DNA of 64,000 nt, taken from contig NZ_PGFI01000014.1 in assembly GCF_002797755.1 (NCBI RefSeq), positions 62,001-126,000 on the forward strand. Direction: 5' to 3'. The notes beneath the pieces are model-generated. The model saw nothing but the letters and a program-made list of their open reading frames with translations. It did no database searches and was not told where the DNA came from. This document shows, one piece after another, positions 11,895 to 17,810 of the stretch (its first letter is position 1; each line of letters begins with the position of its first letter). This stretch comes from Brevirhabdus pacifica (GTDB taxonomy: Bacteria > Pseudomonadota > Alphaproteobacteria > Rhodobacterales > Rhodobacteraceae). Made by a program: the position numbers and the translations under genes.

Positions 11895-12601
11895 GGTGCC
11901 CCCTCGCCCGGGGCGGTGGCGACGCACATGTGCTGTGCCCCCAGCGGGCAGCGGCGCAGCGCCGGGTCCAGCCGCCGCAGTGTGGCCAGGGCGGCCGGGA
12001 AGAAGACGTGATACTCGGTGCCCACCGCGACCCAGCCCGCCGCGGCCACGTGGCGGCGCAGGCGCCGGCCCGACAGGAGCCGCGCGTTGGCATCGAAGGG
12101 GCAGGTGCGCACGGCACGCACGGTCAGCGGGTTAAGGGGGTTATGCTCGAATATGGCCAGCCGGCCGCCGGGGCGCGTGACGCGGCGCAACTCGTGCAGC
12201 CAATGGTCATGCTCTTCCCAGGGGATGTGGTGGAAGACGCAGGCACTGAAAACCAGATCGAAGCTGCCGTCCTCGAAGGGCAGGCGGTTTTCGGTGATCG
12301 CCACATGGCGCTCAGGGCCCGGAGACCGCTCCTGCGCCAGCGCGAGGCTGGCGGGGGAGACATCGGCGCAGACCGGGGCATTGTCTGGGAAGTGGCGGCG
12401 GAAGCCGGGCAGGGAATTTCCGATGCCGCTGCCGAAATCCAGCATCGCAGGGCAGTCGAGCCCGGCCCCGTCCGCCAAGCGGCGAAGCTGCGCGATCTTG
12501 TAGTCGGCGAAATAGGCGGGGTCCTCGCCAGTCAGGCGAATATTGTCCAGGTGCTGCCGATGGTAATCGGCCGCGTAGCTGTCGAATTCAGGATCCTGCA
12601 T
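11891..12601 (-). CDS. SAM-dependent methyltransferase, class I
   Basis: The 236-residue protein has the Rossmann SAM-binding motif LDFGSGIGNSLP (near residues 54-65), a second motif ADVSPASLALA, and the post-II segment GSFDLVFSACVFHHIPWEE typical of the Methyltransf_11 group. The substrate is unknown. As first gene of the methyltransferase-GtrA-GT2-membrane protein operon it may modify a glycan or its lipid carrier. The stop overlaps the next start (ATGA). Confidence 0.88.
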   Translation of the reverse strand: MQDPEFDSYAADYHRQHLDNIRLTGEDPAYFADYKIAQLRRLADGAGLDCPAMLDFGSGIGNSLPGFRRHFPDNAPVCADVSPASLALAQERSPGPERHVAITENRLPFEDGSFDLVFSACVFHHIPWEEHDHWLHELRRVTRPGGRLAIFEHNPLNPLTVRAVRTCPFDANARLLSGRRLRRHVAAAGWVAVGTEYHVFFPAALATLRRLDPALRRCPLGAQHMCVATAPGEGAP

Positions 12602-12987
12602 GCCTTTGACGCCCGTGTCGCGCCGGTCTGTGCCGGCTTGTCGCCCCTCGCGGGCAGTGGTCGGACTCTAGGCCTCGCGGGGCGGCTTGCCCAGAATGGG
12701 GCAGCCGGCGAAATTTTTTTCACTTCTCGTGACGTAAAACCGCGACAGCGCAGGCTGGCGCCCTATCTCGCCGAAGAACGGGTGAGAGATACATCGGATG
12801 ACATGCCCGAGGAAAAGCGGCGAGGCAGAAATTCATGGGGTCGATCGAGTTTTACCAGTGTGACTGGGCGATTTTCCGCTGTAAATTTGAGGTGCGGCAG
12901 TGGTGTTCCGACGGTTTGAATGTATGAAGACAAAAAAAAAGACACTCCGCACACCCACCCTTGTCACGGAAAGGCGCTAGCTCTGAA
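12602..12987. other. intergenic region between the glycan and stressosome operons
   Basis: These 386 bases separate divergent operons and should hold both promoters. The right half is less GC-rich than the surroundings. It includes a perfect CCAGT-GTG-ACTGG dyad (12855-12867) and a run of nine A residues (12931-12939). No convincing gene or EcfG-type promoter was seen in it. Confidence 0.6.
12855..12867. promoter_or_regulatory. small dyad upstream of the rsbR-like gene
   Basis: CCAGT-GTG-ACTGG is a perfect 5-bp inverted repeat about 120 bases before rsbR. It could be an operator for either divergent operon. The arms are short, so chance cannot be excluded. Confidence 0.35.
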
Positions 12988-13872
12988 ATGTCTATCACAA
13001 GCTTGGAAGAGGTTTTGAAGATCCTCCGCGAGGACTTTGACGACATCCTGCAACAGTGGCTGGAAACCCAGCGCGAAGAAGGAATTCGTCGACCCGATCT
13101 TTTCTCGGACAGCGAAAGCTACCGGCAGGCCAAGAACCTCCTGACCGCCTTCGCCTCTGGCATGACCTCAGCTTCCCAGGAAGGGCGTCCCAATCTGGAC
13201 GATCCCAGCTGGGCGGACCTGCGCGCCGTGCTGGAAGAGATCACCCATGAGCGTGTCGAGCGCGGCGTTTCCGCCGGCGAGATGGCGACCTTCGTGCTGG
13301 CGCTCAAGACGCCGCTTTTCATGCGCCTGCGCAACAATCTCAAGGACAGCCCCGATGCGCTGGTCAGCGAGATCAGCCGTCTGTCGCGCATGATCGACGC
13401 CTTTGCCATGCGCACCAACGAGGTGTTCATCGAGGAGCGCGAGCAGATCATCCAGCGCCAGCGCGACGAGATGATGGAGCTTTCGACCCCCGTCGTGCAG
13501 CTGTGGGAGCGTATCCTGACGATCCCGCTGATCGGCACGCTGGATTCGGTCCGCGCCCAGGAGGTGATGGAAAACCTGCTGAACTCGATCGTCGAGCACC
13601 GCGCCGAGGTCGTGATCGTGGACATCACCGGCGTTCGCGTGGTCGACACGCAGGTCGCGCAACACCTGCTGCGCACTGCCGCCGCCGTCCGCCTGATGGG
13701 CGCCGAGTCGATCATCAGCGGCATCAGCCCCAAGATCGCCCAGACCATGGTCGAGCTGGGCGTCGACGTGGGCGAGATCACCACCCGTCCCACCATCCGC
13801 GCCGCCCTGGCGCTGGCGATGAACCGCGTTGGCTTCGAGATCCGGGCCAACAAGGAAAGCGCCCGTGACTGA
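12988..13872 (+). CDS. rsbR: RsbR-like stressosome protein (RsbRD_N + STAS)
   Basis: The 294-residue protein has an N-terminal helical sensor domain (about 1-155) of RsbRD_N type (VLKILREDFDDILQQWLE, then a helical segment with EREQIIQRQRDEMMELSTPV). A C-terminal STAS domain follows (about 165-290). Thr167 in ELSTPV and Thr221 in VRVVDTQV match the positions phosphorylated by RsbT in Bacillus RsbR proteins. In the known system RsbR and RsbS form a large particle that holds RsbT until stress. ATG 12988 was chosen; a TTG nine codons upstream has no ribosome site. It overlaps rsbS by eight bases. Confidence 0.9.
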   Translation: MSITSLEEVLKILREDFDDILQQWLETQREEGIRRPDLFSDSESYRQAKNLLTAFASGMTSASQEGRPNLDDPSWADLRAVLEEITHERVERGVSAGEMATFVLALKTPLFMRLRNNLKDSPDALVSEISRLSRMIDAFAMRTNEVFIEEREQIIQRQRDEMMELSTPVVQLWERILTIPLIGTLDSVRAQEVMENLLNSIVEHRAEVVIVDITGVRVVDTQVAQHLLRTAAAVRLMGAESIISGISPKIAQTMVELGVDVGEITTRPTIRAALALAMNRVGFEIRANKESARD

Positions 13873-14227
13873 CGCCGCCTCCATCTATCACGTCGAGAAC
13901 GTGTTGTTGGTGGCGATCCGCGATAACATCACGGATACCGACATCATCACCCTGCAGGAAGAGCTGTCCCACAGGATCGTCTCGGACGGCGCGCGCGGGG
14001 TGGTGATCGACATCTCGGCTCTCGAGATCGTCGACACTTTCGTCGGTCGCATCCTTGCCCAGCTGTCGTCGATCGCGCGGCTGCTGGCGGCCGAGACCTA
14101 CATCGTCGGCATGCGCCCGGCCGTGGCAATGACCCTGGTCGAGCTTGGCATGGACCTGTCGGGCAGCCGCACGGCGCTCAGCCTGTCCCACGCCCTGCGC
14201 AGCTTGAGGGCCAGCAGGCTGGCATGA
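13865..14227 (+). CDS. rsbS: RsbS-like STAS protein
   Basis: The 120-residue product is a single STAS domain with VVIDISALEIVDTFVGR (residues 46-62) and VGMRPAVAMTLVELGMDL, a close family match to RsbS. In Bacillus RsbS the phosphorylated residue is Ser59 in VVDS; here the equivalent position is Thr58. The gene starts with GTG, overlaps rsbR by eight bases and ends in an ATGA overlap with rsbT, so the three are co-translated. Confidence 0.92.
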   Translation: MTDAASIYHVENVLLVAIRDNITDTDIITLQEELSHRIVSDGARGVVIDISALEIVDTFVGRILAQLSSIARLLAAETYIVGMRPAVAMTLVELGMDLSGSRTALSLSHALRSLRASRLA

Positions 14228-14631
14228 TCGGGGCGGATGCGTGTCCTGTCCTGACCGTTCCCCTGAGGGACGAGCGTGACATCGCGGCCGCCCGGTCGGC
14301 CGTGTCACGCGAACTGGACAAGCGGGGCGCCCGCGCCCTGCGCAAGGTGCGTTTCGTCACCGCCGTCAGCGAGATCGTCCGCAATGCGGTCGATCACGGC
14401 GGCGGTGGCGAGATGTCCGTCTTCGTCAAGGAGCGCCCGCTCGAGATCTGGGTCCGCTGCACCGATACCGGGCCGGGGATCGCGGATATCGACGAGGCAT
14501 TGCAGGACGGGTTCTCGACCGCCCGGAGTATGGGCAAGGGGCTGGGCGGCGCGAAGCGGCTGGTGGACTCGTTCGAAATCACAAGCCGCGTCGGCGGCGG
14601 AACCACCGTGGAGATATCAGCCGCCCTATGA
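14224..14631 (+). CDS. rsbT: RsbT-like serine/threonine kinase
   Basis: The 135-residue protein is a GHKL/HATPase of the RsbT/RsbW group. The N box is SEIVRNAVDHGG (Asn54), the G1 box is DTGPGI (81-86), and the G2 region is GKGLGGAKRLVD (104-115). RsbT phosphorylates the STAS proteins RsbR and RsbS and then leaves the stressosome to activate a downstream partner. Both ends show ATGA overlaps with neighbours. Confidence 0.93.
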   Translation: MIGADACPVLTVPLRDERDIAAARSAVSRELDKRGARALRKVRFVTAVSEIVRNAVDHGGGGEMSVFVKERPLEIWVRCTDTGPGIADIDEALQDGFSTARSMGKGLGGAKRLVDSFEITSRVGGGTTVEISAAL

Positions 14632-15665
14632 AGCAGTCCGTAGAGATCTCAGAAAGAAGCGGCGTCGCGGAAGCACGCCGCATGGCACAGAGATATGCCT
14701 CGGACCTTTCCCTCGGCGCCGAGCGCGAGGATCGTCTGGCCATCGTCGTGACCGAAATGGCGACCAACCTGCTGCGCCATGCCGCCGGCGGCCGGATCCT
14801 GCTTCAGGAAATCCCCGTTCAGCGCGCGGGCGCCGCGGCTGAGGGCGCGCGCCGGTTGATGGTTGCGGCGGTCGACACGGGCCCCGGCATTCCCGACATC
14901 GGCCGCGCGCTTCAGGACGGCTATTCCACCCTTGCACCCGGCATCGGCGGGTCGGGCGGCGTCGGTCTTGGGGCCATGCAGCGGCTGGCCGACACGTTCG
15001 ACATTCATTCCGAACCGGGCGGGGGCACGGTCGTCTGCTGTTCCTTCGGGGCCGCCAACCCACAGCTTGCGGGCGTGGACCTTGCGGGGTTCCGCATGAA
15101 CTACCCCGGCGAGATCGAGTGTGGCGACAACTGGACGGCGCGGGTCCGCGACGGGGTGGTCGAGATCCTGGTCATCGACGGGCTGGGCCACGGCCCCCGC
15201 GCGGCCGCCGCCGCCGAGGAGACGCTGAAGGCGTTTGCCCTGCGTCGCGACAAGGACCTTGTCACACTGATGGAGAACCTGTCGGAAGACGTGCGCGCCA
15301 CCCGCGGCAGCGTGGCCGGGCTGCTGCAGATCGAGGCCGCGAACAACCGGGCCTATTACGGCGGGATCGGCAACATCACCGCGATGGTGGCGGCGCCGGG
15401 CAGCGCGACACGACGGCTTATCTCGCGCGACGGGCGGCTGGGCGGTCCGGCCCGAAGTCTTCAGACCGAGGAACTGGACCTGCGCCCGGGCGATACGCTG
15501 ATCCTGCACTCCGATGGTATAGCGACCCTGCGCGGGATTGACCGGATGACCGGGTTGCTGCGACATTCGCCGGGGTTGATCGCGGCGTCCCTCATGCGCG
15601 ACCATAACCGGGGCCGCGACGACGCCTGTGTCGTTGTCGCCCGGATCGCGCGGCCGGAGGTGTAA
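14628..15665 (+). CDS. fused RsbT-like ATPase and PP2C-type (SpoIIE/RsbX-like) phosphatase
   Basis: The 345-residue product joins two modules. Residues 1-140 form a GHKL ATPase domain (TEMATNLLRHAAGG, VDTGPGIPDI, GVGLGAMQRLADTFD). Residues 155-345 form a PP2C domain with metal-binding aspartates in ECGDNW, VIDGLGHG, LHSDGI and GRDDACVVV. In known stressosomes RsbX resets RsbR and RsbS by dephosphorylation and RsbT phosphorylates them; this protein has both folds in one chain. It overlaps rsbT by ATGA and ends two bases before the kinase gene. Whether the ATPase half acts as a kinase or only binds a partner is unknown. Confidence 0.92.
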   Translation: MKQSVEISERSGVAEARRMAQRYASDLSLGAEREDRLAIVVTEMATNLLRHAAGGRILLQEIPVQRAGAAAEGARRLMVAAVDTGPGIPDIGRALQDGYSTLAPGIGGSGGVGLGAMQRLADTFDIHSEPGGGTVVCCSFGAANPQLAGVDLAGFRMNYPGEIECGDNWTARVRDGVVEILVIDGLGHGPRAAAAAEETLKAFALRRDKDLVTLMENLSEDVRATRGSVAGLLQIEAANNRAYYGGIGNITAMVAAPGSATRRLISRDGRLGGPARSLQTEELDLRPGDTLILHSDGIATLRGIDRMTGLLRHSPGLIAASLMRDHNRGRDDACVVVARIARPEV

Positions 15666-15667
15666 CC

Positions 15668-16891
15668 ATGCGGATCGCGACGCTTCGGATAACCGACGAC
15701 AAGGACATCGTCCGCCTGCGGCAGGTGGGACAGTCCGTTGCCAAGGCCCTGGGCTTCGAGACATTCGCACAAACCCGGATCGTCACCGCGCTGATGGAAC
15801 TTGCGCGCAACACGTTGCAGCACGGGGGCGGGGGTCAGATGATCCTGTCTCTCGCAGGGCGCAACGGCCTCGTCACGCTGATGGTGCAGGCCGTGGACCA
15901 GGGCCCGGGGATCAAGGACCTCAAGACCTTGCTGCACGGAGAAGGGGCGATTGCCAGCGCCGGGCCCGGCCTGGGGCTTGGCCTGCGCGGCGTGCACCGC
16001 ATCGCCGATGTCTTCGACGCCGAGACCGGCCCCGCCGGCACCCGGATCGAGGTCGGCTTCCTGACCGCGCTCGCCGCCGCCAAGCTGAGCGAGGCCGCCC
16101 GCCGGGTTACCGACGACGTCGTCAGCCTGGAACGCGCGGATCCGGCCGCCATGCTGGCCCAGCAGAACCGCGAGCTGATGCAGGCCCTGGCCGAGCGGGA
16201 CCTGATGATGGCCGAGATCCATCACCGCACCCGCAACAACCTGGCGCTGGTCAACGGGCTGATCCGCCTCAGCCGCGCCTCGGCCCAGTCCTCGGAAACG
16301 CGCGAGGCGCTGGCCGACCTGGAGAACCGCATCCACGCGATCATGAAGGTTCACGAACAGCTGCAACGGCGCGACGCCGGCGACACGCTGGAGGTGCTGC
16401 CGCTTCTGCGCGACGTGTCGGACCACGCGACGGCGGCCTTCAGCATGCCCGGCCGCACGGTGCGGGTCAGCGTGGACGGCGACGCCGCCGTGCTCAGCAG
16501 CTCGGCCGCGATCGACGTGGCGCTGGTGGTGGGCGAACTGATCACCAACGCCCTGAAACATGCCTTCAGCGGCCGCGAGTCCGGGCGCATCACCATCGAG
16601 GTTTCAGCCCGCGACACGGGCCTCAAGCTGATCGTGGCCGACGATGGCCACGGCCTGCCCGACGGCATGGAAAAGCCCGAACGCTCGGCCTCGCTGGGCT
16701 GGCGGATGATCCGCTCCACCACCCAGAAATACGGCGGCACCATCGACGTCCGCTCGGAAAGCGGGCTGGTGGTCGAGCTGGTTCTGAACTCGATCAATCC
16801 GGTCGAGGAAGGCGCCTCGGACGGGTCCGAGGGCGGGGTGGGCGCCGGTTCCGGAGCAGGTGCCGGGGCAGGGGCCGGGGCTGGCCGCTGA
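15668..16891 (+). CDS. RsbT-like ATPase fused to HisKA_2-type histidine kinase
   Basis: The 407-residue soluble protein has two GHKL domains. Residues 1-135 resemble RsbT (MELARNTLQHGGGG, DQGPGI, GLGLGLRGVHRIADVFD). Residues 175-380 form a histidine kinase of the HisKA_2/HWE type, with phosphoacceptor motif EIHHRTRNN (His186), N box GELITNALKHAF and DDGHGLP. The tail (391-407) is a Gly-Ala repeat. HisKA_2 kinases commonly phosphorylate PhyR-type regulators of the alphaproteobacterial general stress response. There is no transmembrane or PAS sensor, so the N-terminal ATPase half is probably the input from the stressosome. No response regulator gene is adjacent. Confidence 0.9.
   Translation: MRIATLRITDDKDIVRLRQVGQSVAKALGFETFAQTRIVTALMELARNTLQHGGGGQMILSLAGRNGLVTLMVQAVDQGPGIKDLKTLLHGEGAIASAGPGLGLGLRGVHRIADVFDAETGPAGTRIEVGFLTALAAAKLSEAARRVTDDVVSLERADPAAMLAQQNRELMQALAERDLMMAEIHHRTRNNLALVNGLIRLSRASAQSSETREALADLENRIHAIMKVHEQLQRRDAGDTLEVLPLLRDVSDHATAAFSMPGRTVRVSVDGDAAVLSSSAAIDVALVVGELITNALKHAFSGRESGRITIEVSARDTGLKLIVADDGHGLPDGMEKPERSASLGWRMIRSTTQKYGGTIDVRSESGLVVELVLNSINPVEEGASDGSEGGVGAGSGAGAGAGAGAGR
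16838..16888 (+). repeat. Gly-Ala codon repeat at the kinase 3' end
   Basis: A degenerate 6-bp repeat (GCN-GGN) encodes the low-complexity tail VGAGSGAGAGAGAGAGR. It is in frame, and slippage there would change tail length or frame only after the kinase domain. Confidence 0.8.
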
Positions 16892-17003
16892 GCCGCGCCG
16901 GCCTTGCGGGATTTCCGCCTGCGGCGCGAGTTGCGCTGCGTTTGTCCGACTCATCGCGCCGGGCGCCCTTGTTCCGGGCCGGGCGGCGCTTTACATGGGC
17001 AAT

Positions 17004-17810
17004 ATGAAACGTTTCGTGCCCTTTTTGAAGGCGGACCCCGTGGTCGCCGTCGTGCGCTTGTCGGGGGTCATCTCTACCGGGCGCGCGGGGCTGAACGACG
17101 CGGTCATCGCGCCGGTCCTGGAAAAGGCGTTCCGGCGCGGCAAGCCCGCGGCGGTGGCGCTGGTCATCAATTCGCCCGGCGGCTCGCCGGCGCAATCCTC
17201 CCTCATTGCCGCCCGCATCCGGCGCCTGTCGGAAGAGCATGACGTGCCCGTCCACGCCTTTGTCGAGGATGTCGCCGCATCGGGCGGCTACTGGCTGGCG
17301 TGCTCGGCGGGCAACATCGTCGTCGATCCCAACTCGATCACCGGCTCCATCGGCGTGATCTCGGCCTCATTCGGCTTTGACAAGCTGCTGGACCGTTTCG
17401 GGGTGGAGCGGCGGGTCCACACGGTGGGCGGCGCCAAGAGCTTCATGGACCCCTTCCAGCCCGAGAAGACCGAGGATGTGGAGCGCCTCAAGCAGCTCCA
17501 GGAAGCCATCCACGAGAATTTCGTGGCACAGGTCCGCGCCCGCCGCGGCGACCGGCTGAACCCCGAGGTCAAGATGTTCGGCGGCGAGATCTTCGTCGGC
17601 CGCAACGCGGTCGAGGCCGGGCTTGCCGACGAGGTGGGCCACCTGGTCCCGACCATGCGCAAGCTGTTCGGCGACAAGGTCCGGTTCCGCCGCTATGGCA
17701 TCCGCCGCAACCCGTTGGCTTTCCTTGGGGCCTCGCTGGCCCGGGGCGCTGTCGGCAGCGCGCTGGAAAGCGCCGAGGCGCGGGACCTGTGGTCCCGCTA
17801 CGGGCTCTGA
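17004..17810 (+). CDS. SppA-like S49 family serine protease
   Basis: The 268-residue protein has the S49 signature INSPGGSPAQSS, the nucleophile region EDVAASGGYWLACSA (Ser in SGGY) and the likely base Lys in GGAKSFMDPF; NSITGSIGVI lies between. It is a single-domain, short-form signal peptide peptidase. No signal peptide or obvious anchor is present, so it may be cytoplasmic or peripheral. ATG 17004 (MKRFVPFLK) was preferred; ATG 16995 is three codons upstream and equally weak in ribosome site. It starts a plus-strand run with the small CxxC protein and the exchanger. Confidence 0.88.
   Translation: MKRFVPFLKADPVVAVVRLSGVISTGRAGLNDAVIAPVLEKAFRRGKPAAVALVINSPGGSPAQSSLIAARIRRLSEEHDVPVHAFVEDVAASGGYWLACSAGNIVVDPNSITGSIGVISASFGFDKLLDRFGVERRVHTVGGAKSFMDPFQPEKTEDVERLKQLQEAIHENFVAQVRARRGDRLNPEVKMFGGEIFVGRNAVEAGLADEVGHLVPTMRKLFGDKVRFRRYGIRRNPLAFLGASLARGAVGSALESAEARDLWSRYGL

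Follow-up and report, generated by a model that had tools for sequence, protein, structure and literature searches.

Gene content of the operon

The window, by which we mean the whole 64,000-nucleotide stretch of Brevirhabdus pacifica DNA analysed here, contains on its forward strand a stress-sensing operon with the gene order RsbR-RsbS-RsbT-X-kinase, and an S49 peptidase is the next gene downstream. The first gene (12988..13872, + strand) encodes an RsbR-type sensor/co-antagonist composed of RsbRD_N (PF14361, E = 1.2e-19) and STAS (E = 1.3e-15), and its alignment to Listeria RsbR shows that the LIGT and DITGVxVVDT phosphosite regions are preserved. It is followed by an RsbS-type single STAS protein (13865..14227, +; Pfam STAS, E = 2.7e-11; aligned to Listeria RsbS) whose start is uncertain, either TTG 13829 or GTG 13865, and by the RsbT switch kinase with a single GHKL domain (14224..14631, +; Pfam HATPase_c, E = 7.1e-13), which is placed with other RsbT in the trees. 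The fourth gene, X (14628..15665, +), combines an RsbT-like GHKL domain (about residues 8-139; HATPase_c_2, E = 8.2e-15) with a SpoIIE/RsbX-type PP2C phosphatase (residues 175-340; SpoIIE, E = 1.7e-13). Overlaps of 4 bases join the rsbS stop to the rsbT start and the rsbT stop to the X start, and the kinase starts 2 bases past the X stop. As known from the genes alone, the stressosome set (RsbR with STAS, RsbS, RsbT and the phosphosite regions) is complete in this operon. A promoter scan of positions 12600-17100 found nothing.

The phosphosite of RsbS in the window is Thr (VDTF) in place of Ser. Thr occupies this site in all five Rhodobacteraceae entries counted (L017, L018 and L023 included), and Ser is found in the other phyla surveyed.

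Domain architecture and fold of the kinase

The kinase closes the operon and is encoded by an open reading frame of 407 amino acids (15668-16891, +). The initial annotation had given its span as 15668-16538, of which the start is correct, whereas the end lies within the reading frame and cuts off part of the second ATPase domain. The N-terminal domain, hereafter HK_N (residues 1-135; 15668..16072, +), is an RsbT-like GHKL domain according to Pfam, its motifs, its conservation and its fold match. When residues 1-137 were searched alone against Pfam, they matched HATPase_c_2 (33.3 bits, cut-off 27.4, E = 5.5e-8) and, just above the threshold, HATPase_c (26.5 bits, cut-off 26.4). The complete GHKL signature previously described for the first 135 residues is present, with the quoted motifs and Asn48 at their places: E44 and N48 in the N-box, D77-G79-G81 in G1, G101-G103-G105 in G2, and R18 as the putative STAS-contact residue. 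A helical linker (residues 136-182; 16073..16213, +), defined by helices 137-156 and 159-205 in the secondary structure of the model, leads into the HisKA_2 dimerisation/phosphoacceptor (DHp) domain (residues 183-253; 16214..16426, +; Pfam HisKA_2, E = 9.6e-16). With the full-length protein the scores were 58.1 bits for HisKA_2 (cut-off 22.3) and 34.7 for HWE_HK (cut-off 22.8), and the HRxxN motif of this domain is H186-R187-T188-R189-N190, with HRTxN in 12/12 aligned relatives. The C-terminal HATPase (residues 283-373; 16514..16786, +; Pfam HATPase_c/HATPase_c_2 and fold match) is the second GHKL domain, so that a double-GHKL kinase, for which a domain search had been proposed, is indeed what Pfam recovers. 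At the very end lies a low-complexity Gly/Ala tail, GAGSGAGAGAGAGAGR (residues 383-407; 16814..16891, +), predicted to be disordered (pLDDT about 33); this tail is missing from the aligned relatives.

Pfam matched no sensor family, PAS and GAF included, in the full-length kinase, and no transmembrane segment was evident by eye, in agreement with the earlier description of a kinase lacking such sensors. RsbU_N was likewise absent among the matches of this general Pfam scan, and the RsbT-like GHKL domain stands in that place. The best NCBIfam match of the kinase is PhyK, at a score far under the PhyK cut-off.

An AlphaFold2 single-chain model of the kinase, built with an alignment of nine relatives, has a mean pLDDT of 75, and its N-terminal domain is mostly at 81-91 except for the lid at residues 92-104; a model of this domain alone and without alignment reached a pLDDT of 60 and was left out. 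Residues 1-134 of the model superpose on SpoIIAB (1th8_A; Z = 16.0, rmsd 2.3, 123 amino acids) and RsbW (6m36_G; Z = 15.7, rmsd 1.5, 103 amino acids), whereas residues 172-380 superpose on the HWE kinase EL346 (4r3a_A; Z = 18.2). A Foldseek search with the full model returned mainly kinase cores. Together with the Pfam matches, these superpositions indicate that the kinase contains two GHKL domains of different families.

Distribution of the architecture

We scanned 84,980 species genomes with the alignment of the N-terminal domain and kept the best 80 loci, which belong to Pseudomonadota, Nitrospirota, Acidobacteriota, Rokuibacteriota, Methylomirabilota, Cyanobacteriota, Planctomycetota, Myxococcota and Chloroflexota (about ten phyla overall). 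In 80/80 of these loci the matched domain forms the N-terminus of the gene that follows X, and in 77 it is continued in frame by kinase sequence; the other three (L035, L075 and L096) run off the contig. In 76/80, the 4 kb upstream of the matched domain contain R, S, T and X, all on its strand; three of the four loci without the full set are at contig edges and the fourth is from an Oscillatoria MAG. The last of these (L093, Oscillatoria princeps) combines an RsbT-like-fused kinase with an X that is truncated at its N-terminus. Neither RsbT nor RsbR was matched elsewhere in the assembly, the RsbR search having had no positive control, and the locus may have decayed or been misassembled. The same architecture in genomes without RsbR/S, which the initial annotation had named as counter-evidence, is therefore limited to this one weak case among the best 80 loci.

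Since a similarity scan favours close relatives, two evenly drawn samples (398 Pseudomonadota and 385 Alphaproteobacteria genomes) were added. They hold 17 fused kinases in 16 genomes, and 16 of the 17 adjoin T and X. The 17th (L141, G697:C1:497000-507000) is an RsbT-like-fused HisKA kinase divergent to RsbR; S, T and X are missing at this locus, but the genome has a full module elsewhere. Among 394 Rhodobacteraceae genomes, one per genus, nine encode a full-length relative, each preceded by T and X. The same five-gene operon is also carried on plasmids of Phaeobacter inhibens (pPGA1_262) and Alloyangia, and plasmids of Sphingomonas aliaeris and Deinococcus have the five-gene operon but with a HisKA kinase. 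The recurrence over about ten phyla indicates that the architecture is no local oddity, and the double-GHKL kinase, first thought to be unusual, is in fact a recurrent part of RSTX modules. Two parts of the first reading have held: the RsbT-type input half of the HisKA_2 kinase is an intact domain, and the RsbR/S/T linkage and invariant putative STAS-contact residues tie it strongly to the stressosome.

Several variants of the module were also observed. Nearly all modules surveyed have an RsbT-like domain on the phosphatase X. In L132-L135 an RsbT-type domain is fused directly to PP2C and no separate RsbT was seen. L125 and L129 have a short PP2C gene that is preceded by a second RsbT-like gene standing on its own. 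In L137-L139, RSTX modules are followed by a 290-amino-acid HisKA kinase without HK_N and then by a REC-HisKA-REC hybrid kinase. This is another mode of coupling, and HK_N is hence not essential for every kinase-linked stressosome.

Conservation and phylogeny of the N-terminal domain

In 100 HK_N domains, from loci chosen by similarity to HK_N itself and counted without weighting for relatedness, E44, N48, D77, G79, G81 and G105 are conserved at 100% and G103 at 99%, and both R18 and R37 are invariant. A degenerate, non-ATPase N-terminal half, the finding that would have spoken against the first reading, was looked for and is answered by the complete conservation of the N-box E/N and the G1 D/G; we thus rule out a degenerate domain. 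The chance that the N-terminal half is a functionless remnant of a fusion is practically nil, given ATP-site residues that are complete in 100 sequences from about ten phyla and a domain that is kept in every relative fetched.

HK_N R18 and E44 align with Arg23 and Glu49 of RsbW (model residues 1-134 on RsbW 6-144). The placement of R18, R37 and E44 follows from these ranges and from a spacing between the Arg and the N-box Glu that we take to be the same in RsbW. In the crystal structure of RsbW with RsbV, Arg23 and Glu49 of RsbW touch Asp23 and Ser56 of RsbV, and Asp42 touches Arg84/Arg87 (PMC7340262). Position 37 is Lys in 80% and Arg in 16% of RsbT and Arg in 100% of HK_N, as against Asp42 in RsbW, and a basic rather than acidic residue here places HK_N with the RsbT type. 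An identity as RsbW or another anti-sigma factor was ruled out on the same ground. From its sequence, HK_N should bind STAS proteins.

The tree of RsbT, X_N (the RsbT-like domain of X) and HK_N resolves three groups with three label changes, the minimum being two, and recovers HK_N (SH-aLRT = 97) and X_N (93) each as one group; a smaller tree separates HK_N from RsbT at 98/93. Because it is fused to a kinase and forms a clade apart from RsbT, HK_N is best called RsbT-like and not RsbT. Most lineages have a HisKA core beneath it and Rhodobacteraceae an HWE/HisKA_2 core, and three other Alphaproteobacteria with HWE cores branch apart from Rhodobacteraceae. With two changes on the tree and an AU p = 0.066 for one clade, two origins of the HWE core under HK_N are likely but not proven. 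The kinase core is swapped (HisKA or HWE) and the RsbT-like domain stays constant, as one would expect of an adaptor.

A histidine kinase as probable client of the stressosome

The histidine kinase, with its intact RsbT-type domain, shares an operon with RsbR, RsbS, RsbT and a phosphatase fused to an RsbT-like domain. Its domain content and fold, its gene linkage, the conservation of HK_N, the putative STAS-contact residues and the separate clade all point to a stressosome-client histidine kinase whose HK_N would dock on RsbS/RsbR, a reading to which we give a probability of roughly 0.6; most likely HK_N docks the kinase there in place of RsbT. In published accounts, RsbT docks on RsbR/RsbS, phosphorylates both upon stress, departs and acts on RsbU_N effectors, and RsbX resets the system (PMC9237108, PMC12143880). 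HK_N may dock on the STAS faces of RsbS/RsbR in the fashion of RsbT, and the RsbR-RsbS scaffold would then fix the signalling state of the kinase dimer. Under stress RsbT, and perhaps also HK_N, would phosphorylate RsbS and RsbR, and the phosphorylated scaffold would release or reposition the docked domains together. This change would travel via the helical linker to the DHp and switch autophosphorylation at His186, until X, carried to the same STAS sites by its own RsbT-like domain, strips the phosphates and resets the system. With both HK_N and X_N on the STAS sites of RsbT, the scaffold would hold an output kinase and a reset phosphatase as clients.

The long linker helix that enters the DHp in the model would also suit a kinase that never docks on the scaffold itself, and RsbT is described as activating RsbU-type effectors via an ordered helical linker, with RsbU_N kinases in some RSTX operons (PMC12143880; PMC9237108). 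We nevertheless regard such a passive receiver as unlikely, as HK_N is RsbT-like and not RsbU_N-like, and as an ATP pocket and STAS-contact residues kept at 100% would be superfluous in it. The same conservation of the catalytic Glu44, Asn48 and the G1/G2 boxes, as in RsbT, could instead mean that HK_N acts chiefly as a further Ser/Thr kinase, directed at RsbS/RsbR or another STAS protein, and that the histidine kinase half is under separate control. This appears improbable as well, for an RsbT of its own is present in every module, and the fusion, which is kept across phyla with differing kinase cores, would be left unexplained if the two halves were regulated separately; a Ser/Thr kinase activity of HK_N is in any case compatible with docking and could belong to the same mechanism. 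GHKL domains of the SpoIIAB/RsbW type are able to dimerise, which, with the intact nucleotide site, would fit an ATP/ADP-responsive dimerisation domain that reports the energy state of the cell and is unrelated to STAS proteins. That interpretation is very unlikely in our view, because it does not explain the near-perfect linkage to RsbR/S/T/X or the invariant STAS-contact arginine. Docking of HK_N on the STAS proteins remains the preferred reading, and the presence of the same five-gene arrangement in many phyla suggests how stress sensors could signal straight to a kinase.

Possible output in Rhodobacteraceae

No response regulator gene lies beside the operon in the window. A small home-made REC profile likewise detected none next to ten other Rhodobacteraceae operons, where about 3.5-6.5 kb were covered on each side, and we therefore regard the kinase as an orphan. 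In Rhodobacteraceae the phosphate would probably pass to a regulator encoded elsewhere in the genome, for which PhyR or an SdrG-like single-domain regulator acting in the EcfG general stress response is the most plausible candidate. HRxxN is the motif of the HWE/HisKA_2 kinases that activate PhyR (PMC5898713). PhyR, NepR and an EcfG-type sigma factor occur together at one locus (G000:C1) of the genome that encodes the kinase, and NepR is found in 9/9 kinase-host genomes compared with 187/394 overall (P = 0.0011, kinship and genome size being ignored). No NepR match was obtained in G854, an HWE-type host outside Rhodobacteraceae. The motif, the lack of a linked regulator, the PhyR-NepR-EcfG locus and the NepR distribution are thus suggestive, and only suggestive, of a kinase tied to PhyR-EcfG in Rhodobacteraceae.

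The stressosome is known from the control of SigB in Gram-positives and PhyR-NepR-EcfG is the partner switch of Alphaproteobacteria, and the two systems are thought to be separate. We propose tentatively, and hold it to be rather doubtful, that the kinase joins them in Rhodobacteraceae and that the stressosomes of many phyla carry three competing RsbT-type domains on one STAS scaffold; if true, these three would be the free switch kinase, the reset phosphatase and the output histidine kinase.

Comparison with known systems and implications

HK_N resembles RsbT of Bacillus and Listeria in its GHKL fold, the N-box ELARN, the G1/G2 boxes, the basic position 37, the putative STAS-contact Arg and the adjacent RsbR and RsbS, but differs in being fused to a histidine kinase, in forming its own clade and in the separate RsbT that is also encoded. 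The order R-S-T-X followed by a kinase is that of the Gram-negative RSTX modules, and a class with downstream HisKA/REC modules is listed, with Ruegeria among the examples, in Heinz et al. 2022 (PMC9237108). There RsbU_N is the only recognised coupling domain, X is a single-domain PP2C and coupling without RsbU_N is left open in the text, unlike the operons described here, where X and the kinase both bear RsbT-like domains. As in the RsbU_N effectors (RsbU, Moorella MtG and NreB-type kinases), a stressosome-responsive N-terminal domain would sit on exchangeable effectors; however, those receive free RsbT, whereas this kinase carries an RsbT-like domain of its own. The HisKA_2 DHp with HRxxN and the matching core are shared with the PhyR-activating HWE/HisKA_2 kinases (PhyK, Paks and LOV-HK), but the input is an RsbT-like ATPase and not a PAS/LOV/GAF or periplasmic domain.

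The coupling of an RsbT-like domain to a kinase is undescribed in the papers accessible to us, and our claim to novelty is limited by an older RsbRST survey (Pane-Farre et al. 2005) that may show the double-ATPase kinase. In the 2022 Vibrio study (PMC9237108), most downstream signalling proteins were without RsbU_N, and a transient RsbT contact was only suggested for them. Sequenced type strains and published genetics are available for carriers of the operon such as Phaeobacter inhibens DSM 17395 (on pPGA1_262) and Deinococcus radiodurans (on plasmid MP1). For the question of how the stressosome signals to its output outside the SigB bacteria, RsbT-like domains in both the kinase and the reset phosphatase would provide a concrete and testable answer in many phyla.
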